DNA of 37,838 bases, taken from contig JALZWO010000077.1 in NCBI GenBank assembly GCA_023300375.1, positions 1 through 37,838 of the forward strand. Reading direction: 5' to 3'. Source of the stretch: Granulosicoccus sp. (lineage in GTDB: Bacteria; Pseudomonadota; Gammaproteobacteria; Granulosicoccales; Granulosicoccaceae). The number at the start of each line of letters is the position of its first letter. Position 1 is the first letter of the stretch. Positions 14,475 to 30,919 of the stretch are shown in pieces. Under the pieces are notes generated by a model. That model was given only the letters and a program-made list of their open reading frames with translations. It had not been told where the DNA came from and did no database searches. A program made the translations under genes and the position numbers.

Positions 14475-16760
14475 ATGGGTAGCGCTACGCAGGCACGGCG
14501 AAAAGCTATTAGGCACAGTCAGAATTCTCTTCTCTACGCGGGTGCAAAATTCTCCGCGGTGGGATCGTTCGCTGCCTCACTGGTTGTTGCCTATACCTTC
14601 GGATCTCTAACAGATCCAGCTTTAGCACTAATCTGGTTCGTCTTCATTTCGGCTTGCTATTTACTGCGTCTAATTGACTGCCGACAGTTTACGCTTGCAC
14701 CGACAGCGGCTGATGAAGCAGACAAGTGGGCTCTCCGATTCAATGTTGGAGCCCTAACCTCAGCTATAGCATGGGCAGCAACTATGTGGGTCGTTTTTCC
14801 ATTCGGAGATCTTCCGCACCAGCTTTTGCTCATCTTGACGTTGGGTGGAGTTGCCGGAGGCGCTTTGGCATCTCTTCCTTATGATCGAGGGCTGAATTTG
14901 ATCTTTCAACTCATCATCATGTTGTCGGTAGAAATTCGATTGCTGACTCTGGGTGATCCGTTTTCACTGGAAGTGGCCTTGTTTAGCTTGTTTGTGTTTG
15001 GATTTCTATTGAGCTGTGGAAAGCAGGTTAGTAAGAATTACTACGAGTTGATAAGGCTCAAGCAGGATATTCAAGACCGTAGTCGTTCTGTTTTGAACAC
15101 GACAGAACGCATGGCGCAAGTAGGTTACTGGGAATGGGATGGGAAATCTGGCTTTATTGAATTGTCCAATAACTTGGCAGAGATATGGGGGGAGTCAGAT
15201 CTATTGATGCCCATAAAGAGCTGTCTTCGCCGGCTTCACCATGAGGACAGGCAGATTGTTCGACAAAGTTTTAACTCTATGCGAGAACATGATGACATAG
15301 TCGTTGAATTCCGGATGCAACAGAATGGATCAAGAGAGCGCTATCGGAACATGCGCCAAGTGACCAAACAGATTGCTGGCTTGCAGAATGAGGTGCGACT
15401 CATAGGGACTGTTCAGGACGTTACTGATATCAGGACTGCGGAAGAGAAAATCTACTCGATGGCATACTACGATGGCCTTACTGGGTTGGCTAATCGGGCC
15501 TATTTTCATGACTATCTGAGTAAAACAATCGAGAAGGCTGCGAATCAAGGGCAGAGCTTTAGCATCATTTACATGGATCTGGATAACTTTAAAGGTGTTA
15601 ATGATAGCTTTGGGCACGAGTGCGGAGATGGCTACCTCCGGCAATTCTCAGATCATCTAAAACTACATGTAAGACGCAGTGACCTAGTTGCTCGTCTTGG
15701 TGGGGATGAGTTCTGCGTTCTAGTACGTGATATTGACGATATCGGTGATTCCATCGTAACAGCGAAACGATGTCTGGAATTCGGTGATAAAACCATTGAA
15801 GTGGGGAATCATCGAATACGTCCAACGTTAAGTGTCGGTATATCAACGTATCCGCAGGATGGAATGGTGCCTGACACCTTAGTCAGAAATGCTGACTTGG
15901 CGATGTATCATGTCAAGAATAATGGCAAGCAGAATTACTCATTATTCAACAAAGAGATGGTAGTGGAGTCTCAGGATCGTATGGATCTTGAAGCTGATTT
16001 GAAGCAAGCATTAAACAATGATGAATTTGAACTTTGGTATCAGCCTCAGATTGATCTACGGAGCAAGACAATAAGCGGTGTTGAGGCGCTGATTCGCTGG
16101 AGGCATCCGACACGCGGTATCGTTGCACCAGACCTATTCATATCGACAGCTGAGCGGGTCGGTATTATTAAGGAAATAGGTGAATGGGTTTTGCAGACGG
16201 GTTGTCAACAGTTGGCCGAATGGGCCGCGTCAGGTGTAAGCACGCAGTTGGCTGTCAACATTTCTGGCGATCATTTTACCGCACCAGGATTTTCTGAATT
16301 TGTAGCTGCCACTGTTCGTAATAATGGATTACTGCCTGAAGCCGTTGAGATAGAAATTACCGAAAGCCTGAGTCGGGATCCCGTAGCCCATGAAAGGATT
16401 TGTAAAGAGTTAAGAGAGATCGGTGTTCGTATTGCTATAGATGATTTCGGAACCGGCTACTCATCGTTGTCTTTGTTAGGCAAGTTGCCAGTAGATACAA
16501 TAAAGATCGATCGTTCTTTTATCATGGAGCTTCCTGATGACTTGTCATCAAGGCTGATGGTGAAAGCCATTACTGATCTATGCCTTGGGTTTGGCTATGA
16601 CATTGTGGCTGAAGGCGTTGAGACTGAAGAGCAGTCTCTGTTTTTGGAGGGTATAGGTGTCCCTTATGTGCAGGGCTATTACTTCAGTAAACCTCAAATG
16701 GCACACGAGATACAACTGATACTTGCGCAACTGAGGCCTGCAGTTTTTGCTTCCCGTTAG
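14475..16760 (+). CDS. Membrane bifunctional GGDEF/EAL protein with PAS domain
   Basis: This 761-residue cyclic-di-GMP protein has four parts. Five or six hydrophobic segments (about 25-180) form a MASE-like sensory region. A PAS domain (about 205-320) begins near MAQVGYWEWDG. The GGDEF domain (about 325-490) has an intact GGDEF at 409-413 and an RxxD inhibitory site (RRSD) five residues upstream. The EAL domain (about 505-755) has EAL at 537-539, plus EITES, DDFGTGYSSL, KIDRSF and AEGVET. Both active-site motifs look complete, so the protein could make and degrade cyclic-di-GMP, with product inhibition of the cyclase. It stands alone with its own upstream region. Signal and targets are unknown. 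Confidence 0.93.
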   Translation: MGSATQARRKAIRHSQNSLLYAGAKFSAVGSFAASLVVAYTFGSLTDPALALIWFVFISACYLLRLIDCRQFTLAPTAADEADKWALRFNVGALTSAIAWAATMWVVFPFGDLPHQLLLILTLGGVAGGALASLPYDRGLNLIFQLIIMLSVEIRLLTLGDPFSLEVALFSLFVFGFLLSCGKQVSKNYYELIRLKQDIQDRSRSVLNTTERMAQVGYWEWDGKSGFIELSNNLAEIWGESDLLMPIKSCLRRLHHEDRQIVRQSFNSMREHDDIVVEFRMQQNGSRERYRNMRQVTKQIAGLQNEVRLIGTVQDVTDIRTAEEKIYSMAYYDGLTGLANRAYFHDYLSKTIEKAANQGQSFSIIYMDLDNFKGVNDSFGHECGDGYLRQFSDHLKLHVRRSDLVARLGGDEFCVLVRDIDDIGDSIVTAKRCLEFGDKTIEVGNHRIRPTLSVGISTYPQDGMVPDTLVRNADLAMYHVKNNGKQNYSLFNKEMVVESQDRMDLEADLKQALNNDEFELWYQPQIDLRSKTISGVEALIRWRHPTRGIVAPDLFISTAERVGIIKEIGEWVLQTGCQQLAEWAASGVSTQLAVNISGDHFTAPGFSEFVAATVRNNGLLPEAVEIEITESLSRDPVAHERICKELREIGVRIAIDDFGTGYSSLSLLGKLPVDTIKIDRSFIMELPDDLSSRLMVKAITDLCLGFGYDIVAEGVETEEQSLFLEGIGVPYVQGYYFSKPQMAHEIQLILAQLRPAVFASR

Positions 16761-16821
16761 TTCATGTGTATATAACAATTGGTAACCAGCCATTTTTAAT
16801 CGTTGACACCTGTGCCTTAAA

Positions 16822-16850
16822 TTGACACGATAGGAAGCATATACTACAAC
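16822..16850 (+). promoter_or_regulatory. Candidate sigma70 promoter for the radical SAM gene
   Basis: A consensus -35 TTGACA at 16822-16827 is separated by 17 nt from TACAAC at 16845-16850 (four of six match TATAAT). Another TTGACA lies 19 nt upstream at 16803-16808. Initiation near 16857 would give a leader of about 43 nt before the ATG at 16900. Confidence 0.4.
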
Positions 16851-16899
16851 TTTAAATACATTGAAGAGCAGCGGATTCTGCCTTTCGGGAGAATTGAAG

Positions 16900-18384
16900 A
16901 TGGCTCGAGCTAGTGCAGATGCGCGTCAGGAATTCAGCGCAGATTTTGTTCGAAAATTTATCGACAAAGAAGCTTTTCGTCGACAGTCCAACAAAGTGCT
17001 ACACGGGCATCCATCACCCATGCACTGGAAACCACTAGAGTCCAGCACTGCGCAATTACTTGATGAGCGCGCAGGGTACGGCATGACTACGCGTCACGAG
17101 GTGAATTTGTATGTAGGCACGCCGTTTTGTATCAAGACCAAGCCGGCCCGATGTGGATTCTGTCTTTTTCCGAGTGAAGACTACGAAGGTAACAAGGGGG
17201 TTGAGGCATACTTGGGCTACTTGAAGCGTGAATTCGATATGTACAAGCCGTACTACTCTGACGATACCTTGTCAAGTATCTACTTTGGTGGAGGCACCCC
17301 AAACCTGTATCGCCCTGAGCACTATGGACGGCTGATGGAATACGTGGATGATCTTTATGGAGGCATTCCGAGTGATATTGAGATATCACTGGAAGGAATT
17401 CCGCAGTTGTTCAATGAAGACAAGATCAAAGCAATTAGTGAAGCTGGGATCAACCGCATTAGTATGGGTGTGCAGCAGCTCAATGATGAATTGATCAAGT
17501 ACAGTGGCCGTAGACAAACTCGCCAGCAGGTTTTCGATACCTTGGAGCTATGCCATAAGTATAATCTGGCTAATAGTCTTGATCTGATTTATGGATGGCC
17601 AGAGCAAACAATGGAGAACATGCTCGAGGATCTGCAAGTTGCCGTAGATGCTGGCGTGCACCACATTACACACTACGAGTTGAACGTTGCGGGTCGCAGC
17701 GATTTCGCAACGCCAAAGAACAGGTCCTTGTTACCATCGATCGAAACAAACATCGAAATGTACCGGGCAGCTAATGAATTTTTGACTAGTGCAGGGTTTG
17801 AACAGGTCACCGTATATGATTGGCGCAGAATACCTGAGGAAAAAGATGCTGCACGATTAAGCTCTTACGACTATGAGCATAATATGCACGATTTTGTACA
17901 TCAGGAAGCGGATAAGTCTGCAACAACGCTGCGTCAGGTTTGTGGTATTGGGTATGCAGCAGTAAATTTTCACCCTAATAGTCTCAACCCTGAGGACAGA
18001 AACTGGATCTATATGAACCAGACATCGCTAAAGGATTATTGTGATGACATTGATGCCGGTCGTTTCCCAGTGGGAAGAGGCTTTATGTACTCCCCGAAAG
18101 ATGTAAAGCTGGCGTGGTTGTTTCAATCCATGCAGACTATGAAAATTAATTTTGTGCAGTACATGAGCATCTTCAACGAAAACCTTCTGGACACTCATCG
18201 CCCGTTGTGGGATGAGCTAGATCAACGAGGCTGGTTGTCCATCAATGAGACCGAAATTTGTTTTGAAGCTGCCGGACAATACTACATTCCCATGCTGCAA
18301 TCGCTTATAGCCAGCAAACGTTTGGATGAGATCAGAGCGTCGCGCAAGCAAACTGTAAGCAATATCGCAGTCGTTGTAGAGTAG
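16900..18384 (+). CDS. HemN/HemW-like radical SAM protein with CX7CX2C cluster motif
   Basis: This 494-residue radical SAM enzyme resembles the coproporphyrinogen III dehydrogenase (HemN/HemW/HutW) group. YVGTPFC replaces the usual YxHIPFC, YFGGGTPN is the SAM-binding glycine motif, and RISMGVQ plus DLIYGWPEQT are the typical later strands. The cluster-binding cysteines are Cys77, Cys85 and Cys88, spaced CX7CX2C with a KTKPAR insertion instead of CX3CX2C. The His of the YxHxPFC motif is replaced by Gly. A true HemN is therefore unlikely, and the substrate is unknown. I chose the ATG at 16900 (GGAG 8 nt upstream) over the TTG at 16861. An alpha/beta hydrolase gene follows 123 bp downstream on the same strand. 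Confidence 0.8.
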   Translation: MARASADARQEFSADFVRKFIDKEAFRRQSNKVLHGHPSPMHWKPLESSTAQLLDERAGYGMTTRHEVNLYVGTPFCIKTKPARCGFCLFPSEDYEGNKGVEAYLGYLKREFDMYKPYYSDDTLSSIYFGGGTPNLYRPEHYGRLMEYVDDLYGGIPSDIEISLEGIPQLFNEDKIKAISEAGINRISMGVQQLNDELIKYSGRRQTRQQVFDTLELCHKYNLANSLDLIYGWPEQTMENMLEDLQVAVDAGVHHITHYELNVAGRSDFATPKNRSLLPSIETNIEMYRAANEFLTSAGFEQVTVYDWRRIPEEKDAARLSSYDYEHNMHDFVHQEADKSATTLRQVCGIGYAAVNFHPNSLNPEDRNWIYMNQTSLKDYCDDIDAGRFPVGRGFMYSPKDVKLAWLFQSMQTMKINFVQYMSIFNENLLDTHRPLWDELDQRGWLSINETEICFEAAGQYYIPMLQSLIASKRLDEIRASRKQTVSNIAVVVE

Positions 18385-18392
18385 ATTGCAGC

Positions 18393-18443
18393 TTGAATGA
18401 AGGCCGGTCTCGTATACAAAATCAAAAAGGCTGGCCTCATTGA
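18393..18443. repeat. Imperfect inverted repeat after the radical SAM gene
   Basis: The arms around 18396-18407 (aatgaaggccgg) and 18430-18442 (ggctggcctcatt) pair with one bulge and one mismatch, across a loop of about 22 nt. No T-run follows. It could be a weak transcript-end hairpin or attenuator between the radical SAM and hydrolase genes. Confidence 0.3.
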
Positions 18444-18507
18444 ACTATCAAGCCATTGATGGCGAATTATCGATGGCAGTGAATTATGTCTAAAACTGGA
18501 AAGTCGC

Positions 18508-19422
18508 ATGGGTGTTGTTGAACAACCATCTGTGCATCATATACACAATGGGCTCGGAACCCGGCTTGGCCTAACGCATTTTTCAGCTGGTAAACCGGTT
18601 AGCTCGCATGATTCTGACGACGGTACACTCGCTAACGACGATGTCAGCCCTGAGGTAGTGCTTTTAGTACACGGCACCTTTTCTAATCACCGGTCCTGTA
18701 GTGGCTTAGCGAGATATCTTGCGAAGGCAGGATGTGAGTGTTGGGTGCTGGATTTTCAGGGGCACGGTCACAGTAGCCGCCCGGTAAAGCATCCCACCTT
18801 TGAATCCATGTGTCTGGATGATACGGAAGCAGCCTTATTATTTCTTCGAGAAAGATACTCAACGCAGAAGATACACTTTGTCGGACATAGCGCAGGTGGT
18901 TTAGCCATATTGATGTACCTAGCTAGAAACCCACTGATGCAAGAATCGATCGGTCATGTCGTCACTCTGGCCAGTCAGGCGACACACGCGGGTGTATTGA
19001 AACGAAACCGATGGGCAATAAGACTTGCAAGTTTCGTAACTCGCCTAGTGGGTTTCGCTCCTGGCCGGTGGCTCGGTATCGGGCCTGAGCATGAATTTGG
19101 TAGAGTAATGTCACAGTGGTACCGTTGGAGTTTACAAGGTCGATGGCTGGGCACTGATGGTTTCGACTACGAGGCGGCCCTGTCACAACTTGACCTACCT
19201 CTATTGTGTCTTGCTGCTGAAGCGGATACTTTTATAGCACCCCAAGACGGATGTCGGCACGTGTTCGAGCTTTACGGAAGTAACGTAAAGGAGTTCCAAG
19301 CATGTGGGATTTCAACAGGATTTCTGGAGAGCTACACACACGCCCGTATAATCAGCTCCAGCAGCGCTGCTAAGGATATCTGGCCCAAGATTTATAACTG
19401 GTTGATGACGGGGCAGAATTAG
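18508..19422 (+). CDS. Alpha/beta hydrolase
   Basis: This 304-residue alpha/beta-fold hydrolase has oxyanion-side VHGTFSNHRS, strand/turn WVLDFQGHGHSS, nucleophile elbow GHSAGG with Ser128, candidate acid Asp in AEADTF, and candidate His in ESYTHARI. A helical cap (about 165-225) is Arg/Trp-rich. No signal peptide is seen, so it is probably cytoplasmic. It resembles the serine aminopeptidase / lysophospholipase-like group, but the substrate cannot be deduced. GGAAAG sits just upstream of the ATG. It lies 123 bp downstream of the radical SAM gene and could belong to the same pathway. It is convergent with the HAD-like gene. Confidence 0.85.
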   Translation: MGVVEQPSVHHIHNGLGTRLGLTHFSAGKPVSSHDSDDGTLANDDVSPEVVLLVHGTFSNHRSCSGLARYLAKAGCECWVLDFQGHGHSSRPVKHPTFESMCLDDTEAALLFLRERYSTQKIHFVGHSAGGLAILMYLARNPLMQESIGHVVTLASQATHAGVLKRNRWAIRLASFVTRLVGFAPGRWLGIGPEHEFGRVMSQWYRWSLQGRWLGTDGFDYEAALSQLDLPLLCLAAEADTFIAPQDGCRHVFELYGSNVKEFQACGISTGFLESYTHARIISSSSAAKDIWPKIYNWLMTGQN

Positions 19423-19426
19423 AAAA

Positions 19427-19452
19427 CCATACTGTAGCTATGACAGTTATGG
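19427..19452. repeat. Small hairpin in the convergent intergenic region
   Basis: The arms ccatactgt and acagttatgg pair with one bulge around a 7-nt loop, just after the alpha/beta hydrolase stop codon. It lies between convergent genes and might help end transcripts, but no T-run follows. Confidence 0.25.
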
Positions 19453-19550
19453 GAATTGATTCCACTATGATGAGTACCATCGACTTAGCTTTATAAAAAC
19501 CATAGCCGTCACACTTAACTAAGCTGCTTTGCTTACCCGTCAGCTCACCG

Positions 19551-19844
19551 CTATGTTGTCAACAGACATGAGCGCATGGCATCAGGCGTTGGAATAGCTA
19601 GTGGATTATCGTCAATCCAAACATCAGCTGTGAAGCATTCCTGCTTAGGCTTTTTGTTGCAGAAAACAATGTCGATACCCATTGCGTTTGCATCTTGATG
19701 AATATCTTTATTGTCTGCACTCTTCATTCTAGCCGTGACAAACGTAACGGTCGTGCTTGGGTTCATCTGCAATGCCTTTACCGCTTTGCGCCACGAAGCC
19801 CGATCCAGAGTGAAAGTATCGTCATAATCTAAAGCTATCTTCAT
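19551..19844 (-). CDS. Short HAD-like hydrolase domain protein
   Basis: This 97-residue protein has the HAD-superfamily hallmarks in compact form: DYDDT near the N-terminus (Asp6, Asp8 as nucleophile and acid), a Thr in TFVTARM (motif II), a Lys-rich middle, and WIDDNP (motif IV). There is no cap domain, so it is smaller than typical HAD phosphatases and resembles short phage or plasmid type HAD proteins. The ATG at 19844 begins MKIALDYDD; a GTG at 19862 is also in frame. It lies 58 bp downstream of the DUF1501 gene on the same strand and may share its transcript. Substrate unknown. Confidence 0.65.
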   Translation of the reverse strand: MKIALDYDDTFTLDRASWRKAVKALQMNPSTTVTFVTARMKSADNKDIHQDANAMGIDIVFCNKKPKQECFTADVWIDDNPLAIPTPDAMRSCLLTT

Positions 19845-19902: not shown

Positions 19903-21327
19903 TCAAACCTGATTCAAAAAATCTAGCCCTTCCCACCAGTCCTCACCAAAATTACTCAAGTCAGGAAACACCTGATTCAGATCAGTCTCGGTAACACCCA
20001 TCCACCTGGCCATCATGGCGCCATACTGATTGATAGATAGAGAAGGGATAATACGTCCTTTATCGCCACTGTCATCGTCCGCATCAACGGCGAAGCTGGG
20101 TAGCTCACCGAAGAGCTGTCCACCGTTTACAGCACCTCCCATGACCATGCAGTGACCACCCCAGCCATGATCTGATCCATCGCCGTTGATGGTGACTGTT
20201 CTGCCAAAATCTGATGCAGTGAATGTAGTAACTGAGTTTGAGGCGCCAATTTCGGCAAGTGTTGCTTGAAAGTCAGTGAGGCTTCGATCCAGATCGGCTA
20301 ATAATTCGGCAAGTCGTGGGGTTTGATTATCGTGTGTGTCCCAACCACCAGCACCAACAAAGAAAATCTGCCGTTTCATACCAAGGCTTCTATTGCCAGC
20401 GATTAAACGGGCGACCATTCTGAGCTGCTGAGCAAGACGGCTTTCTTCATCGTACGGTGCGTCGATATTGACAGTGTCTGCCAGTGTTGCAGCGAGTTGT
20501 CCTGAGCCAAATTTTGCTCCAGAGAACGAGCTTGCTGCTTGTTGCATAAGCGCATGATCACTGGACTGTCCTAATATCAAATCCAAAGCTTGCTCTCTGG
20601 CCCGATTACTCGACAAGCCGGTCTGATCATCTAGGTAGGTTAGCAAGCTAAGCCCGTTAACAGGATTCAAACTAAGGGGTTGTATTTGCTGACCAGGCAA
20701 CCAGTAGTTACTGCCGTTCACTGAAAAGCTGGGGGGGAGTGTGGCCGTGGGATTTGCCTGCTGAAGTAGATCGGCCATGCGTCCACCCCAACCACTGCCC
20801 ACCACTGAGGCGGGTGAGCTACTGAGTCCTTTAAGCCATTGCTCTTGCTGGTGATTATGTGCGAACAGATCATTGGGAATAGGTAAGTTGCCGCTAAGGT
20901 AGTTGTCGCGGGTGATGGGTTCAATCAAATTGCCTACATTAGCGACAACCGCCAGTTCGCCGGTTTCATACATGCCGTGTAATCCACCCAGTAAGGGGTG
21001 AAAACCGATGCCAGTATCAACTGCACCTGTTAATAATTCATCAGCAGGAATGACCAAGCCGCCTCGGCCAGCTGCATACTGCTCGTAACGTGCTGCATCG
21101 GTGGGTACAAACATCGAAAATGAATCGCTGCCACCATACAAAAATACACAGACCAAGGCTTTGTAGTCTTGTATGTCGCTGTAGTCTGCACTTTGCGCCA
21201 ATGCTGAACCAATAAGGCTCAATTTTCCATTCATGGCGCTAGCGCCAGAGCCTAGTAATGAGATAGCGGCAAATTGCTTAAGTAGCTCGCGGCGTTGTCG
21301 CCCGTTTTTGGATTGCAGGTTTGCCAT
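19903..21327 (-). CDS. DUF1501 family exported protein
   Basis: This 474-residue DUF1501 protein belongs to the alkaline-phosphatase/sulfatase-like fold. The N-terminus QRRELLKQFAAISLLGSGASA looks like a twin-arginine (Tat) signal, although the residue before RR is not the usual Ser/Thr. Later landmarks are YGGSDSFSMFVP, GFHPLLGGLHGMYETGELAVVANVG, GGWDTHDNQ, TASDFGRT and DHGWGGHCMVMGG. These give a set of Asp/His residues likely to bind metal. The family function is unproven. It starts one base after the DUF1800 stop codon, so translation is coupled. DUF1800-DUF1501 pairs are a recurrent arrangement in Gram-negative bacteria and are presumed to act together in the envelope. Confidence 0.9.
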   Translation of the reverse strand: MANLQSKNGRQRRELLKQFAAISLLGSGASAMNGKLSLIGSALAQSADYSDIQDYKALVCVFLYGGSDSFSMFVPTDAARYEQYAAGRGGLVIPADELLTGAVDTGIGFHPLLGGLHGMYETGELAVVANVGNLIEPITRDNYLSGNLPIPNDLFAHNHQQEQWLKGLSSSPASVVGSGWGGRMADLLQQANPTATLPPSFSVNGSNYWLPGQQIQPLSLNPVNGLSLLTYLDDQTGLSSNRAREQALDLILGQSSDHALMQQAASSFSGAKFGSGQLAATLADTVNIDAPYDEESRLAQQLRMVARLIAGNRSLGMKRQIFFVGAGGWDTHDNQTPRLAELLADLDRSLTDFQATLAEIGASNSVTTFTASDFGRTVTINGDGSDHGWGGHCMVMGGAVNGGQLFGELPSFAVDADDDSGDKGRIIPSLSINQYGAMMARWMGVTETDLNQVFPDLSNFGEDWWEGLDFLNQV

Positions 21328-21328
21328 G

Positions 21329-24300
21329 TCAGCGTTGTATCAGGTAATCAGGGGAGGCCATCAGCAAGGTCACTGCATCGCGTACTCGCTGGCTTATACC
21401 TTCCGTAGTATCGGGCAGATCGCTTAGATAGTTGAATAGCGTAGTACGAGTGCCAGCGCGCAAATTACCGCTGGTGAGCAAAAGATCTAAATGATCCAAG
21501 ATGGCATCAACATCATCACCAATACTGATTTCAAAAGTAAAATCCAGATGTGATGCACGCCTGCCACGACTATCAGGGTTGTTCAGATAAGAAAGCTGAA
21601 TCTGTTCTCCAATTCTGTTGCTGGTCGCAAGCTCATTACTCTCGGTAAATAATTCAAACTCGGGTGCTACCAGATTTTGATCTGCGATGGTACCTGCCGG
21701 GGAGAACGATGGTTGATAGAAATTAAAGACAGAAGGTGATTTCAACACAGCTTGGCCGGTCACAGAGTCAAGATTTTCCATAGCCGGTGATGGGGTATTA
21801 AACTCACCTCTGACGCTTAAGCTGCCTGGTTGCACACTAAAAGCACGCCACAAGTGGCTCATGCGAAGCACTGGCTCACGCAATTTGCCAAAGGCATTAT
21901 CTGTGTCAACAGGGGCAGTTCGGGCTTCGCTGTCTAGCAACAAAGCACGAATAACCGCCTGTAAGTTGCCTCTTACACCTGTGCCGTCGTTGTTGAACGC
22001 GCTTGCTACACGTTCCACATAAGCTGGGGTGGGGTTGCTGGTGACTAAACGTTTGATCAGCTGTTGTGCTACAAAAGGGCCGACGTTAGCGTGGTTAAAA
22101 ATGTTGTCCAGTGCGAAATCCAGATCTTGTCGGGCACTTTGCCCAGCGGGTGATGTTTGTCCGTTAAGTAGCGTCTTTGCATCAATGTCGTGGAAGCTTT
22201 CAAACGGACGCATCGGGTTAATGACATCGGCGTTTGTGAACGGTTTGCGATCCCATCTTCCCGCATCGGCGTAGTTCCAACCGGTAAATGCACGCGCAAA
22301 TGCCTCGATGTTGTCTTGAGTAAATGAGGAATTCCCAGTACTTGTGCCATCGATATTGAGCTCGTACAGCCCTATGGAAAACAATTGCAGCACCTCGCGT
22401 GCAAAGTTCTCATCAGCGCGTGTATTGGCTTCTACATCTGTTTTCGCATTTTGCAGCATGCTCAAGTACAAGCCCATGACGGGACTCAGTGTGACGCTTT
22501 CTAGCAGATCACGGTAGTTGCCAAAAGCCTTTTCACGCAGCATATCGTAGTAATTTGTTATGCCGTACTGTGCGTTACTCAGCGTGAATCCAGTGTCTGA
22601 AATAACAAACAATTGACTCAATGCAAATGCTACTCGCTGCCTGAGTTGATCCTCTCCTAAGACGACATCGCGCCACCAGACCTCATGGCGCGGGGCTCTG
22701 TTACTGCCATTTGAGAATTGCCGCACGTAGGGTAAGTGAGCAGGTCCTTGTAATGCGAATTGCTGATCAATCCAGTTTTCAATGCCCAGTGCCTGAACGT
22801 CAAGTATGGAATTGCGAGAGGGGCCGAAGCTGGCTTGTGAGAGAAGACGAGATGCTTCTACCGCCGTCACCGTGTTGTTCGAATCGACGACGGTGACGGC
22901 TATGGATGTAGTGTCGGATAGGTCTGTGGCGTCAATTACAGTGAGTGTTGCGCTGTAGGTTCCTGGGTTGGCATATACGTGTTGCACAGTGTCGTTAGAG
23001 GCCACAATAAGTTCAGGTGAATCATCGCCGAAATTCCATACAAAACTGACAATACCCACATCATCAGTCGACGCCGATGGATCAAACGACAGACTTAGAG
23101 GCGCCAAGCCTATTGCCTCTGCCCGAAAACCTGCAATCAAGAAGGAGGCGTTGGGTTCCCCTGTGCTGCTACCTTCAACAATGGTCATCGCTGTCTGCGA
23201 CCATTCTGAGGCGCTACCATCATTGCGTTTGGCACGCACATGCCAAGTGTGCAGGTTGCTGGCTGCCAGATCAATGGTGGCGACGTGTGTGCAAACATTC
23301 GCTTCGCAATAAACAGCTGGGTTAAGATCAGGCACGATGGCCAATGCGCCGTTGAATGCATCGTTGATATAAAAATCGTAGGCGTCCACATCATTTCGGC
23401 CTTGCCATTGAAAGCTGACGCTCTGACCATTGATGAGGGTTACATCACTGGTGGGCGCTACGGCAATCGGTGTGAGCGGTGGCTCAATGACTTCCTCAAC
23501 GATTGCAAAATCTGAATCTGCCCACTCGGTGGTGCCGATGGGATTGATCGCTCTAACTTGCCAACGATGCTCGACGTTTAATGGCAGGTCTAAGACCGTG
23601 CTGTATCGACAGTTTGCTTCATCACAGGTGCTGGCTAAAACAGTAATGGGCGTGATCGAGGCATCGTTGAGTGATCCATCAATGATAGCTAGCTCGAAAC
23701 TGGTTGCTCTTAACGCACGGCTCCATAAAAAAGTGACTGCAAGGCCCTCTTCAATGTCAGATCCATCGGCTGGAGCTAATAAGGCAAAGGCACCTGGGGG
23801 GGCGGTAATTTGTTCAATGGTGTCGAATACTGAACGTGACCAGAACGATGCGCCTAGAGAGTTTCGGCCCCGCACACGCCAAGCATGACCTTCCGCTATG
23901 GGTAAGTTCACCACTTGGGATACTGTGCAGGTGGTGTCATTACACACGGTGTCTGGTCTTAAACCCGTGACGAAAGGCGCTGTGTCTTTCAATACATTGT
24001 CGAAGAAATGAAATTCATAGGTGACCGCATGTTCATCACGTGTCCAGGAAAATTCATAGGTTCTCCCAGTCTCAAGCAAAACTTCAGGCTCGGGAGACAG
24101 AGCAACAGGTACGGGAGGGGGCTGTGTTGCCAGAATAATTATCTCAACGGCTCTACTGGCCCATTCGGACAGGCCAACAGCGTTACTGGCGCGAACTTGC
24201 CATTGGAAATTCACGCCGAGGTCGGAAGGGATATCAATAGCGAAAGAGCACTGGGTATCGCTGCAATTGGATTCAGGCACTGATGCTATGACAGATTGAT

Positions 24301-25789
24301 TGGTTTCCAGAGAATCATTGAAGAGCTCGAAGTCGTAACGTGTTGCGTTAGCCGCTGGCTGCCAGCTGAAGACCACGTTGCTGGTCGCCTCCAGCAGTGA
24401 GCTTGCCACAGGATTAATCAGCACGGGTGTGGGTGGAGCTTCCGTGACAAGAGCAACAGCGTTGAAGGTTGTGCGCGACCAGCCCAGATTACCTACACGG
24501 TTCTCAGCCCTTACGCGCCAGGCGTGGTTGGCAAACTCCACTAGGTTAACTTCAGCCTGAAACTCACAGATTTGACCCGTGCAGATGTCTTGTGGGCGAA
24601 GTCCGGTAACGTGAGGTAACTCGCCTCGATCTGGTGGGGCATTGTTGAAGAAGTGAAATGAGTAACTCGTTGCCAGTGGATCAAGCGCCCATCTAAAGGT
24701 AGCGGTAGCGCCGACGATCAAGTCTGTGCCGCTAGCAGGAAAGAGTGGCGTAGCTAGTGCCGGCCTGCTGATGGCCTCATCAACCACGTAAACACTGGAG
24801 GTGACCCACTCAGAAAATTCCAGCTCATTGACAGCGCGAACTCGCCACGCGTACGACGCACCGCCGGGAGTATCAAACGCGGTTTGGATGCTGCAACTGA
24901 CGCTATCGCAGGCAAGGGCTGGGATGAGAATGACACGACTTGAGCTTTGATCGAAGACGCCTGCAGCAGCCAGTGCGATGTTCGAGATTTCAAGTTCGTA
25001 GCCACTTGCGGCTGCACTAGTGGTCCATGAAAATTCTGTTTGTGCAGATGACACGATAGTGCTTTGTGCAAGCGGTAAATTGATGGTGGGCGTTTCAGGA
25101 ACAACCGGTACCTCAATGGTGCCTTGTGCGGAAATGAGCGCCGTGTGGTAATCGATTTGGCCTGCGACATCAACGAGCACGAGCGTGGCGTAATAGGTAC
25201 CGGATTCGGGAAGTGTGGCTTGGGTAGATAAATTATCTGCAATGTCTAGATCCAGAATAGCGCCAAAATTGTCCTGTACGAACCACAACTGCTTGAAAAT
25301 TGCACCTGGGATTTCTGAGGACGTGCCATCCAAACTGACGCTGAGGCCACCGGTTTGTTCTATTGAAATAGTCACTGTAGCCACTGGTGGAGTGGGTAAG
25401 GCCTCCCTTGTTGCTCTGTCGGTGCTTATGTTTGTCCTGTTGGCGCGTATGGGAAAATTGCTCAATCCATCGAGAGGTGGGCTACCTGGAGCTCCCCGCG
25501 AGGTCGCGTAAGAGAACCATCGAGCTGCTGCTGAAGAGCTGCGAGGAACGCCGTTGCCAGTGGCAAAGCGGTTACCTAATTCGTGCTGTGCCAAGACATC
25601 GCCTTGTGTCGCCTGCATAATAATGCTGTCGATGCCTAGAGACTGATAGGTTATCTCAGATGCTTCAGGATCGATCAGGCTGGTATTGGCCAAAGCTGGG
25701 CTGACATGCAGGTAGCCGATGAAAATGCACAGACATGAAAGCCATTTGAGCGGTGATAGTGGCGTGCTAGTCAAATTAAACGTGTACAA
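21329..25789 (-). CDS. Large DUF1800 protein with Sel1-like, Fn3-like and PKD domains
   Basis: This 1486-residue secreted protein has a Sec-like signal (hydrophobic 15-30, cleavage near ALA at 32-34) and a Sel1-like segment (about 65-100, AQHELGNRFATGNGVPRSSSAAARW). A PKD-like region follows (about 135-225), then six Fn3-like repeats (about 232-875), a PKD domain (about 885-968, VWNFGDDSP and HVYANPGTYSATLTV) and DUF1800 (about 977-1486: RLLSQASFGP, RQRVAFALSQLFVIS, NFAREVLQLFSIGLYELN, AFTGWNY, REPVLRMSHLWRAF). Each Fn3-like repeat carries a CX4C pair: 294/299, 403/408, 509/514, 616/621, 722/727, 828/833. The first start codon is TTG at 25789, with an in-frame TGA just upstream and no ATG nearby. 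DUF1501 follows by one base. Confidence 0.88.
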   Translation of the reverse strand: MYTFNLTSTPLSPLKWLSCLCIFIGYLHVSPALANTSLIDPEASEITYQSLGIDSIIMQATQGDVLAQHELGNRFATGNGVPRSSSAAARWFSYATSRGAPGSPPLDGLSNFPIRANRTNISTDRATREALPTPPVATVTISIEQTGGLSVSLDGTSSEIPGAIFKQLWFVQDNFGAILDLDIADNLSTQATLPESGTYYATLVLVDVAGQIDYHTALISAQGTIEVPVVPETPTINLPLAQSTIVSSAQTEFSWTTSAAASGYELEISNIALAAAGVFDQSSSRVILIPALACDSVSCSIQTAFDTPGGASYAWRVRAVNELEFSEWVTSSVYVVDEAISRPALATPLFPASGTDLIVGATATFRWALDPLATSYSFHFFNNAPPDRGELPHVTGLRPQDICTGQICEFQAEVNLVEFANHAWRVRAENRVGNLGWSRTTFNAVALVTEAPPTPVLINPVASSLLEATSNVVFSWQPAANATRYDFELFNDSLETNQSVIASVPESNCSDTQCSFAIDIPSDLGVNFQWQVRASNAVGLSEWASRAVEIIILATQPPPVPVALSPEPEVLLETGRTYEFSWTRDEHAVTYEFHFFDNVLKDTAPFVTGLRPDTVCNDTTCTVSQVVNLPIAEGHAWRVRGRNSLGASFWSRSVFDTIEQITAPPGAFALLAPADGSDIEEGLAVTFLWSRALRATSFELAIIDGSLNDASITPITVLASTCDEANCRYSTVLDLPLNVEHRWQVRAINPIGTTEWADSDFAIVEEVIEPPLTPIAVAPTSDVTLINGQSVSFQWQGRNDVDAYDFYINDAFNGALAIVPDLNPAVYCEANVCTHVATIDLAASNLHTWHVRAKRNDGSASEWSQTAMTIVEGSSTGEPNASFLIAGFRAEAIGLAPLSLSFDPSASTDDVGIVSFVWNFGDDSPELIVASNDTVQHVYANPGTYSATLTVIDATDLSDTTSIAVTVVDSNNTVTAVEASRLLSQASFGPSRNSILDVQALGIENWIDQQFALQGPAHLPYVRQFSNGSNRAPRHEVWWRDVVLGEDQLRQRVAFALSQLFVISDTGFTLSNAQYGITNYYDMLREKAFGNYRDLLESVTLSPVMGLYLSMLQNAKTDVEANTRADENFAREVLQLFSIGLYELNIDGTSTGNSSFTQDNIEAFARAFTGWNYADAGRWDRKPFTNADVINPMRPFESFHDIDAKTLLNGQTSPAGQSARQDLDFALDNIFNHANVGPFVAQQLIKRLVTSNPTPAYVERVASAFNNDGTGVRGNLQAVIRALLLDSEARTAPVDTDNAFGKLREPVLRMSHLWRAFSVQPGSLSVRGEFNTPSPAMENLDSVTGQAVLKSPSVFNFYQPSFSPAGTIADQNLVAPEFELFTESNELATSNRIGEQIQLSYLNNPDSRGRRASHLDFTFEISIGDDVDAILDHLDLLLTSGNLRAGTRTTLFNYLSDLPDTTEGISQRVRDAVTLLMASPDYLIQR

Positions 25790-28718: not shown

Positions 28719-29288
28719 ATGGACAACGCAATGACAGAAGCTACCTCTTTAACTGATCGAGCGGCATTCATCACGCAATACGGCGGTATCTATGAGCATT
28801 CAGCGTGGATCGCTGAGCGAGCCTTCGACGAAGGTCATTTACCGGCGTTTTTGATTGAACCCGGTAGGTCTCACCTCAAAGAGCTGCGCTCAGCTGAAGA
28901 GGCCTCAGCCTTAGCTGCCACACTTGCAATAACTTTGTCTAAAAGCTCCGACACCGAGAAGCTGGCACTTATTTTGGCGCATCCGGACCTTGTGGGAAAT
29001 GCAGCCCTCGCGGGTAAACTCACTGATGAGTCAAATGCTGAACAATCCAGTGCTGGATTGGACAAATGCACCGCTGATGAACTTGCGCGATTCCAGAGCG
29101 CCAATGCTGAGTACAAAGAGCGATTTGGTTTTCCTTTCATCATGGCAGTGAGAGGGGCAGACCGGCAAAGTATCCTAAGCGCTTTTGAAAAACGATTGAC
29201 CAACGATAAGCAAGTAGAGTTTGATACTGCAATGGTTGAGATCAACAAAATTGCTTTGCTTCGTTTAGAGGCATTGATAAAAAGCTAG
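28719..29288 (+). CDS. uraD: OHCU decarboxylase
   Basis: UraD decarboxylates 2-oxo-4-hydroxy-4-carboxy-5-ureidoimidazoline to (S)-allantoin. The 189-residue protein carries the catalytic HPDLVGNAA with its His, SAGLDKCTADELARFQSAN, and YKERFGFPFIMAVRGADR. The length is near the 165-175 typical of the family plus a short N-terminal leader. The first ATG is 28719, with another at 28731; I kept the first. It heads the plus-strand arm and is followed by the permease fragment 120 bp downstream. Confidence 0.95.
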   Translation: MDNAMTEATSLTDRAAFITQYGGIYEHSAWIAERAFDEGHLPAFLIEPGRSHLKELRSAEEASALAATLAITLSKSSDTEKLALILAHPDLVGNAALAGKLTDESNAEQSSAGLDKCTADELARFQSANAEYKERFGFPFIMAVRGADRQSILSAFEKRLTNDKQVEFDTAMVEINKIALLRLEALIKS

Positions 29289-29408: not shown

Positions 29409-30077
29409 ATGGCTCGCAGTGAAGCAGGAATGATACCGGCACAAATGCGTGATCCAAACTACTTCCCCGGTATTATTAAGGGAACACCGCTCGGGATACA
29501 ACATGTTCTGGCCATGTTTGTCAGTAACGTAACACCCGCTATTATCGTGTCTGGCGCAGCTGGATTTGGTTTTGGTGACAGCTCCAGCATGATTTACATG
29601 ATTCAGATGTCAATGGTGTTTGCAGGTATTGCTACACTGTTGCAAACGATAACGATTGGCCCAATCGGCGCCAAACTACCTATCGTTCAAGGTACCAGTT
29701 TTGCGTTCATTCCCATTATGATCCCGATCGCTATCCAGTGCGGAATGCCGGCACTCATGGGCGGTATTATTGCAGGTGGTATTTTCCACTTTTTCTTGGG
29801 TACGTTTGTTGGCCGTATCCGTCATTGGCTTCCGCCATTGGTGACAGGCCTGATCGTTCTCATGATCGGTTTGTCGCTAGTGAAAGTCGGTATCCAGTAC
29901 GCAGCTGGAGGCGTGCCATTGATGGGTAATCCAGAATTTGGCACTTTTACCCATTGGGGATTAGCATTGGTGGTTATCTTCGTCACTCTAGGCCTGAAAT
30001 TTTTCACACGTGGCCTGTGGTCTTGTCTTTCCAAGCCGGCAAGTACGGTTTCCGGCACTGATGGTATCGTAAGATAG
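29409..30077 (+). pseudogene. Truncated NCS2 (uracil-xanthine/urate) permease, N-terminal half
   Basis: The 222-residue product is the first half of a nucleobase:cation symporter-2 protein, a family of about 450-490 residues. Conserved early features are present: GIQHVLAMFVSNVTPAIIV in TM1, PIVQGTSFAFIPIM in TM3 and five to six membrane segments. Similarity ends abruptly after FFTRGLWS (about residue 205). The last 17 residues (CLSKPASTVSGTDGIVR) are hydrophilic and not permease-like. The second half is lost, including the TM8 glutamate and the NAT signature of TM10. The stop codon overlaps the next start (TAGTG). A good AGAGGA ribosome site precedes the ATG, so it may still be translated. 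Transport activity is unlikely. Confidence 0.8.
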
Positions 30078-30919
30078 TGAGTAACGACAAACACAGTAGT
30101 AATCTCTATGTGCCGCAGGGCGGCTTACCTGGTCAGCATGAATTACTGACTGGGCGAGCCGTCACGACTGAAAGTTACGCAGTGATACCGCGTGGCGTGA
30201 TGACCGATATCGTGACCAGTTTTCTGCCACATTGGGAGAAAACAAGGTTATGGGTGTTGGCTCGTCCAATGTCGGGTTTCTCAACCACCTTTTCGCACTA
30301 TTTGATGGATGTTGGTGCTGGGGGTGGTAGTGATCAGCCTGAATCAGACGATGAGGCAGAGGGCGTGTTGTTCGTGGTAGAAGGCACGCTTAGCCTCAAT
30401 GTAGATGGCAAGCAGAACGCTTTAGTTAAAGGCGGCTATGCATGGCTTGCTCCGGGTGCTGTGTGGACGTTACACAATAATAGCAATGCGCCGGTGCGGT
30501 TTCACTGGTTAAGAAAGCGTTACCAAACGGTCCATGGCCTTGAGGTACCAAGCTCGTTTGTCACTCGCGAGGAGGACAATGAGTCTATTGCCATGCCTGA
30601 CACTGATGGTGCCTGGAGTACCACGCGCTTTGTTGAGCCCACTGACCTTCGTCACGACATGCACGTAAATATTGTTAGCTTTGAGCCCGGCGGCACAATC
30701 CCGTTTGCCGAAACCCACGTGATGGAGCATGGTTTGTATATGCTCGAAGGTAAAGCTGTGTATCGGCTAAACCAAGATTGGGTGGAAGTAGAAGCGGGGG
30801 ACTACCTGTGGTTAAGAGCATTTTGCCCACAAGCTTGCTACGCCGGAGGGCCTGGCCGTTTCCGGTATTTGTTGTATAAGGATGTGAACCGGCATATGGA
30901 TTTGCGCGGACGCATTTAG
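30077..30919 (+). CDS. allE: (S)-ureidoglycine aminohydrolase (bicupin)
   Basis: This 280-residue bicupin enzyme (YlbA/AllE, plant UGHY family) releases ammonia from (S)-ureidoglycine to give (S)-ureidoglycolate, after allantoate amidohydrolase. The N-terminal cupin (about 25-150, VLFVVEGTLSLNVDG and GGYAWLAPGAVWTLHN) lacks metal ligands. The C-terminal cupin has the Mn2+ motif ETHVMEHG (Glu212, His214, His218) with YMLEGKAVYRL, GDYLWLRAFCPQACYAG and a Gln. It begins with GTG at 30077, overlapping the permease fragment stop by one base, which implies coupled translation. No allC for the preceding step lies in this window. Confidence 0.92.
   Translation: MSNDKHSSNLYVPQGGLPGQHELLTGRAVTTESYAVIPRGVMTDIVTSFLPHWEKTRLWVLARPMSGFSTTFSHYLMDVGAGGGSDQPESDDEAEGVLFVVEGTLSLNVDGKQNALVKGGYAWLAPGAVWTLHNNSNAPVRFHWLRKRYQTVHGLEVPSSFVTREEDNESIAMPDTDGAWSTTRFVEPTDLRHDMHVNIVSFEPGGTIPFAETHVMEHGLYMLEGKAVYRLNQDWVEVEAGDYLWLRAFCPQACYAGGPGRFRYLLYKDVNRHMDLRGRI

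Follow-up and report, generated by a model that had tools for sequence, protein, structure and literature searches.

What kind of protein keeps a HemN-like radical SAM core while its cluster cysteines are spaced CX7CX2C for CX3CX2C and the family's motif histidine is gone? The question is raised by a gene on a 37,838-nucleotide contig of Granulosicoccus sp. (GenBank assembly GCA_023300375.1, contig JALZWO010000077.1), referred to here, at its full length, as the window. The gene, its motif and its two neighbours are as follows.

14475-16760, + strand: GGDEF-EAL protein of 761 amino acids (RLGGDEF and EALIR motifs; hydrophobic N-terminal part by eye)
16900-18384, + strand: HemN-fold radical SAM protein of 494 amino acids (Pfam Radical_SAM; profile match to 1olt)
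17116-17118, + strand: codon of G73, which aligns with H58 of HemN (1olt), the motif His of that family
17128-17163, + strand: CX7CX2C motif, with codons for C77 (17128-17130), C85 (17152-17154) and C88 (17161-17163)
18508-19422, + strand: alpha/beta-hydrolase, the conserved partner (Pfam Abhydrolase_1, 79 bits; HGTFS, GHSAGG and YTHAR motifs)

Cluster motif and clade of the radical SAM protein

The radical SAM ORF begins with ATG and has no stop codon inside; starting instead from an in-frame TTG (16861) would lengthen the product by 13 amino acids. Pfam Radical_SAM matches the product at 78.2 bits against a gathering score of 29.5, which places it in the superfamily by domain score, and no second domain is found at E 1. 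A sequence-only reading of this DNA had described Cys 77, 85 and 88 as CX7CX2C, the motif His as replaced by Gly, and the motifs YVGTPFC, GGGTPN, RISMGVQ and YGWP as present; all of this is borne out, the cluster region reading YVGTPFC-IKTKPAR-C-GF-C. The six-residue KTKPAR insertion that it proposed has to be revised, since alignment to 19 HemN-type references gives a net insertion of four residues (CX3 to CX7).

The relatives compared here are 21 full-length members: the window protein, 16 from other Granulosicoccaceae, one each from genomes G579 and G1028 of one other gammaproteobacterial genus (the G1028 sequence being taken from after its stop), and two from Deinococcus plasmids. The partial gene of genome G780 (residues 154-494) is left out of the tree and motif counts and included in the neighbour counts. 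The 19 references come from plasmid records and Granulosicoccaceae genomes and consist of four HemN-annotated, six HemW or HemW-like, two HutW, three STM4012 and four other HemN-like proteins.

In the alignment the spacing is CX7CX2C in 21/21 relatives and CX3CX2C in 19/19 references. The place of the motif His is taken by Gly in 19 relatives and Ala in the other two; thus none of the 21 has either the His or the x3 of the HemN-like pattern YxHxP[FYW]C-x3-C-x2-C, whereas every reference has both. T80 and P82 of the cluster loop are invariant among the relatives, and the loop signature C-x2-T-x-P-x2-C-G-[FY]-C occurs in all 21 and in no reference. The same holds for LEGIPQLF, SGRxQ, DLI[YF]GWPxQT and H-x-[HF]-PSP (each 21/21 against 0/19), while GGGTPN is found in 21/21 relatives and 2/19 references.

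With the motif columns removed, IQ-TREE places the 21 relatives on one side of a branch with support of 100/100. The nearest named neighbours are the two HutW rows, at a weak 93/66; many reference branches are long, and joins of long branches are flagged in the tree, so the clade is claimed and a sister group is not. The sequence-only reading had called for a tree with HemN, HemW, HutW and ChuW; the first three, together with STM4012, are in this one, but ChuW is absent, as are NosN, C10P, Jaw5 and MenK.

Comparison of the window gene with six relatives gives pS of 0.82-0.94, which is saturated, while pN is only 0.14-0.41; the radical SAM protein is therefore under strong purifying selection. 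This selection and the CX7CX2C spacing in every full-length relative uphold the earlier view that the gene is not decayed, and the spacing is not a sequence error either. By its sequence the gene encodes an intact HemN-fold radical SAM enzyme of a distinct subfamily. The three cysteines, kept in 21/21, would be expected to bind a [4Fe-4S] cluster with SAM cleavage. The significance of the clade is that the 19 HemN-like references all keep the cluster motif and the His, whereas its members have changed both under strong selection.

One copy departs from the others: that of G1028 has an in-frame TAG in the conserved N-terminal stretch (L051:9422-9631), with an open hydrolase ORF downstream, and may be decaying or later-starting.

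Several further searches of the window gave little. An AlphaFold2 model from seven sequences had a mean pLDDT of 53, too low for judging the cluster geometry, and was left unused. Profiles of anti-phage families gave one very weak match for the radical SAM protein (17.6 bits) and none for its two neighbours. Promoter-like sites in 16700-19600 number 2, against 4.5 in shuffles, and terminator-like sites 3, against 2.1 (sd 1.6).

Distribution and gene neighbourhood

A pattern scan finds six close relatives, all on contigs titled as Granulosicoccus or Granulosicoccaceae MAGs. Among Granulosicoccaceae the gene is present in 18/48 genomes, and in 12 of the 28 good ones. Apart from the window's own genome, it is found in 0/368 genomes of a class sample (E 1e-40); a phylum sample yields 1/397, which is G579 at 45% identity. 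G579 is also the sole carrier among 200 genomes of its family (f108) and 399 of its order, and is joined by G1028 in a genus sample (2/53); these class, phylum, family, genus and order samples overlap. Another class of the phylum gave 0/385 at E 1e-45 in a search run without a positive control. The in-depth search covers Pseudomonadota genomes and plasmid and phage records; chromosomes of other phyla are covered by one pattern scan, which catches close relatives. In the samples searched, the gene is rare outside Granulosicoccaceae.

A search of 72,556 plasmid records gives 395 matches; two of them, both on Deinococcus plasmids, stand out with identities of 37% and 35% across 94% of the length. 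In the 30 records listed and 60 more taken at steps from 365, the other plasmid matches shown reach at most 32% identity, and their annotations include HemN, HemW, HutW and STM4012. Viral contigs gave 38 pattern matches with no relative among them. Phage records were considered as a source of relatives and rejected; 35 match, and the 10 matches listed all show 22-30% identity.

Two plasmid loci outside the clade have settings of their own. On a Bradyrhizobium plasmid (L058:3628-7599), a CX3CX2C HemN-like protein on a long branch is encoded next to a second radical SAM gene and a glycosyltransferase gene; on a Klebsiella plasmid (L065:983-2918), a HemN-like radical SAM gene on a very long branch overlaps a cytochrome P450 gene.

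In all 20 proteobacterial loci (18 Granulosicoccaceae, G579 and G1028), an alpha/beta-hydrolase gene lies directly 3' of the radical SAM gene in the same direction. The first candidate hydrolase start (ATG/GTG) overlaps the radical SAM stop by 4 bp in three of these loci and lies 6 bp past it in G579 and G1028, which suggests co-translation there. By strict patterns, the hydrolases carry GHSxGG in 19/20, HGTFS in 18/20 and [YF][ST]H[AS]R in 14/20; the PDB offers only weak best matches, at E 4e-5 or worse, among them monoacylglycerol lipases, esterases and epoxide hydrolases.

On the 5' side, a co-directional GGDEF-EAL gene is found in 16/18 Granulosicoccaceae loci, the motifs RLGGDEF and ExLxR recurring upstream in the family; in the two loci without it the radical SAM gene is at a contig end. 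It is beside the gene in neither of the two other proteobacterial loci. In Granulosicoccaceae, 140-1435 bp separate its stop from the point where the radical SAM match begins, a distance at which it may form a separate unit. Clustering of 13 loci (minimum 80 amino acids) gives no other family in more than six loci. The check proposed in the sequence-only reading, that CX7CX2C homologues would form their own clade with conserved neighbours, thus comes out in its favour.

The two Deinococcus plasmids, from KNUC1210 and QL22 (stretches L023:1-11798 and L024:1-11824), give the gene a different setting, in that it lies inside a PKS/NRPS cluster in both. The order is thioester reductase, class III aminotransferase, GNAT, radical SAM, KAS-III and ACP, with one extra hypothetical gene before GNAT in KNUC1210; the GNAT, KAS-III and ACP domains are Pfam-checked in KNUC1210 only. 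The radical SAM and KAS-III genes overlap by 4 bp in both plasmids, and the ACP gene is next. No hydrolase homologue is found in either stretch. Diguanylate cyclase genes occur in the QL22 stretch only, the nearer about 6 kb from the gene and not adjacent. As natural-product loci, these clusters offer a place to look for the product.

Relation to known families and a proposed reaction

The window protein reaches no curated NCBIfam cut-off among the 25 families shown of 27. It scores 171 bits for HutW/ChuW (TIGR04107; cut-off 400), 156.6 for STM4012 (NF006067; 380), 138.6 for HemW (TIGR00539; 205.4) and 131.3 for HemN (TIGR00538; 324.95). Five other members (four full, and G1028 after its stop) score likewise, the top score of both Deinococcus and both f108-genus members being STM4012. 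Pfam HemN_C is without a match in the window protein (E 1) and in two other members (E 0.1) and is under its cut-off in the two Deinococcus proteins; it is missing in one HutW reference too.

A profile of 15 members against the PDB finds HemN (1olt) first (E 1.7e-35; profile positions 64-461 aligned to 1olt 50-433), which supports the HemN fold, and NocN second (E 1.2e-17). HemN, the anaerobic coproporphyrinogen III dehydrogenase, is thus matched over nearly its full length: C77, C85 and C88 correspond to its C62, C66 and C69, Y71 to Y56, E165 to E145, Q192 to Q172, R204 to R184 and D228 to D209, and F68 and G111-T114 are matched in the window protein. Unlike HemN, the window protein has CX7CX2C for CX3CX2C, G73 for H58 and F90 for C71. 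The best NCBIfam score is for HutW/ChuW, a heme-degrading class C methyltransferase, but both HutW references have CX3CX2C, the His and a hutX neighbour, where the hydrolase and GGDEF-EAL genes stand here. STM4012 comes second, over profile positions 31-421 of 427; the clade is nevertheless separate from it, the three STM4012 references have CX3CX2C and the His, and the adjacent hydrolase has no NCBIfam match to the STM4013 family. With its altered loop and no motif His, the protein may present a surface near the cluster that differs from that of HemN, HemW and HutW.

NosN/NocN, C10P and Jaw5 are described, in the available parts of the sources, as HemN-type two-SAM enzymes of natural-product pathways (PMC12871812, PMC6050322). 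NocN resembles the window protein as a PDB match, over the radical SAM part only, and differs in its canonical CX3CX2C; likeness to C10P and Jaw5 rests on their descriptions, not their sequences. The menaquinone methyltransferases MqnK/MenK, as far as the source is available, have six signature motifs (PMC10320005); five of these occur in 0/21 relatives and NxFxxxxY in 2/21.

The cluster spacing itself has a precedent, in that PoyC and its relatives, which are B12-dependent methyltransferases of class B, are reported, in the accessible text, to have a Cx7Cx2C motif (PMC5682303, PMC11285071). Class B enzymes carry a B12-binding domain (PMC9692996, in part), and Pfam finds none in the window protein at E 1; PoyC is compared by its description. 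The sequence-only reading had held that a characterised family with CX7CX2C would count against novelty. Such a family exists loosely in the PoyC type, but PoyC is class B and the window protein lacks the B12 domain. In the PMC literature, which leaves most subscription papers outside its reach, no HemN-like protein with CX7CX2C was found, nor anything for Granulosicoccus with radical SAM or for coproporphyrinogen III oxidase, radical SAM and ketoacyl-ACP synthase III together. The subfamily is described nowhere in the searched literature; CX7CX2C is already in print for the PoyC type.

Several residues bear on how SAM would be bound. Y71, E165, R186, Q192, R204, D228 and GGGT are invariant in the 21 relatives. 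Since Y71 (19/19), D228 (18/19) and R186 (17/19) are also common among the references, including HemW, a heme chaperone, they are no proof of class C activity. According to the part of the source available, the methionine end of SAM-II in NocN is held by Tyr96, Arg153, Asp196 and Ser225, and a Tyr and an Asp help to hold SAM-II in NocN and HemN (PMC12871812). Aligned by eye, the four NocN positions are Y128, R186, D228 and T257. Position 128 is Tyr in 19 and Phe in 2 of the 21 relatives, against Tyr in 4/19 references; position 257 is Thr in 21/21 relatives, against Ser in 8/19 references. Y128 and T257 lean mildly towards a NocN-like SAM-II site.

A tentative reading, to which we give somewhat less than an even chance, is that the enzyme has the HemN fold, probably uses two SAM molecules in the manner of class C, and works on an acyl or polyketide-type substrate. 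The targets of class C enzymes are sp2 carbons, and most of these enzymes belong to natural-product pathways, as stated in the available text (PMC12871812, PMC6050322). In the proposed mechanism, a single [4Fe-4S] cluster would be held by C77, C85 and C88 in a loop extended by four residues. SAM-I would be bound at the unique iron of the cluster and, as the conserved residues suggest, be cleaved to a 5'-deoxyadenosyl radical. A second SAM may then be bound, with methylene-type radical transfer or hydrogen abstraction to follow. The substrate would most likely be an acyl or polyketide-type chain, bound as an ester or thioester. The substrate is the weakest step, more weakly inferred than the others and proposed from the hydrolase partner in proteobacteria and the KAS-III and ACP genes in Deinococcus; the two contexts involve different partners and may point to different substrates.

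A bolder possibility, which we consider doubtful, is a new radical reaction (methylene transfer or cyclopropanation, for example) tied to the enlarged, Thr/Pro-marked loop, the loss of the His and acyl or polyketide chains, with the hydrolase in proteobacteria or KAS-III/ACP in Deinococcus. A clade with fixed partner genes provides a natural test of the role of the His and the loop, and would point to an uncharted radical reaction. The furan fatty-acid methylase FufM was considered as an analogue and rejected; the available text presents it as a methylase that depends on SAM and is 26% identical to UfaM, and nowhere there calls it radical.

Alternative readings and other features of the window

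One alternative is a heme-pathway protein, that is, a divergent HemN, HemW or HutW/ChuW in which the loop change is cosmetic. The best NCBIfam matches (HutW, STM4012, HemW and HemN), the two HutW rows nearest in the tree, weakly placed as they are, and the lack of any HemN over the cut-off in the window genome all speak for it. We nonetheless regard it as quite unlikely, because all of those scores are far under their cut-offs, none of the 21 relatives keeps the motif His, and the HemW motif HNxxYW is in 0/21 of them against 6/6 HemW references. Moreover, HemF scores above its cut-off in the window genome, so that the heme step would be independent of the CX7CX2C protein when oxygen is present, and another gene of this genome is HemW-like and encodes HNxxYW; the adjacent genes encode GGDEF-EAL and alpha/beta-hydrolase proteins, and the gene is in only a minority of family genomes. 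As a separate observation, a third profile match (L054, 38.7 bits) is present in this genome besides the radical SAM gene and the HemW-like gene (L053).

An enzyme modifying RiPPs or other peptides, with the hydrolase as peptidase or esterase, would fit the additional match of the partner to Pfam Hydrolase_4 (serine aminopeptidase S33) and the class C relative NosN, which acts on a peptide according to the available part of its source (PMC12871812). The gaps flanking the window gene are short, however (139 and 123 bp), the 13 clustered loci have no recurrent small ORF of at least 80 amino acids beside the gene, and the Deinococcus neighbours are of PKS/NRPS type with no precursor peptide annotated, two hypothetical proteins lying upstream in KNUC1210; a peptide substrate is thus unlikely. 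The loss of the motif His and the GGDEF-EAL neighbour could also be taken to mean that, with the changed loop, the radical chemistry of the protein is modified or lost and that it is, for example, a SAM- or cluster-binding regulator acting with the upstream c-di-GMP enzyme. This seems very unlikely, given that the three cysteines, E165, Q192, R204, D228 and GGGT are invariant in the 21 relatives and that the GGDEF-EAL gene is missing next to the radical SAM gene in G579 and G1028, is not adjacent in Deinococcus, and in the family lies far enough off to be possibly a separate unit. The two-SAM enzyme remains the reading preferred here.

Elsewhere in the window, a xanthine/uracil permease ORF (29409-30077, + strand) covers Pfam model positions 6-183 of 389 only and runs into the next gene, for a cupin protein (30077-30919); it looks truncated. 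An OHCU decarboxylase gene (28719-29288) just before the permease ORF makes this probably a purine-breakdown gene group. On the minus strand, 19903-25789 encodes a DUF1501 protein paired with a 1486-amino-acid protein with PKD and DUF1800 domains.
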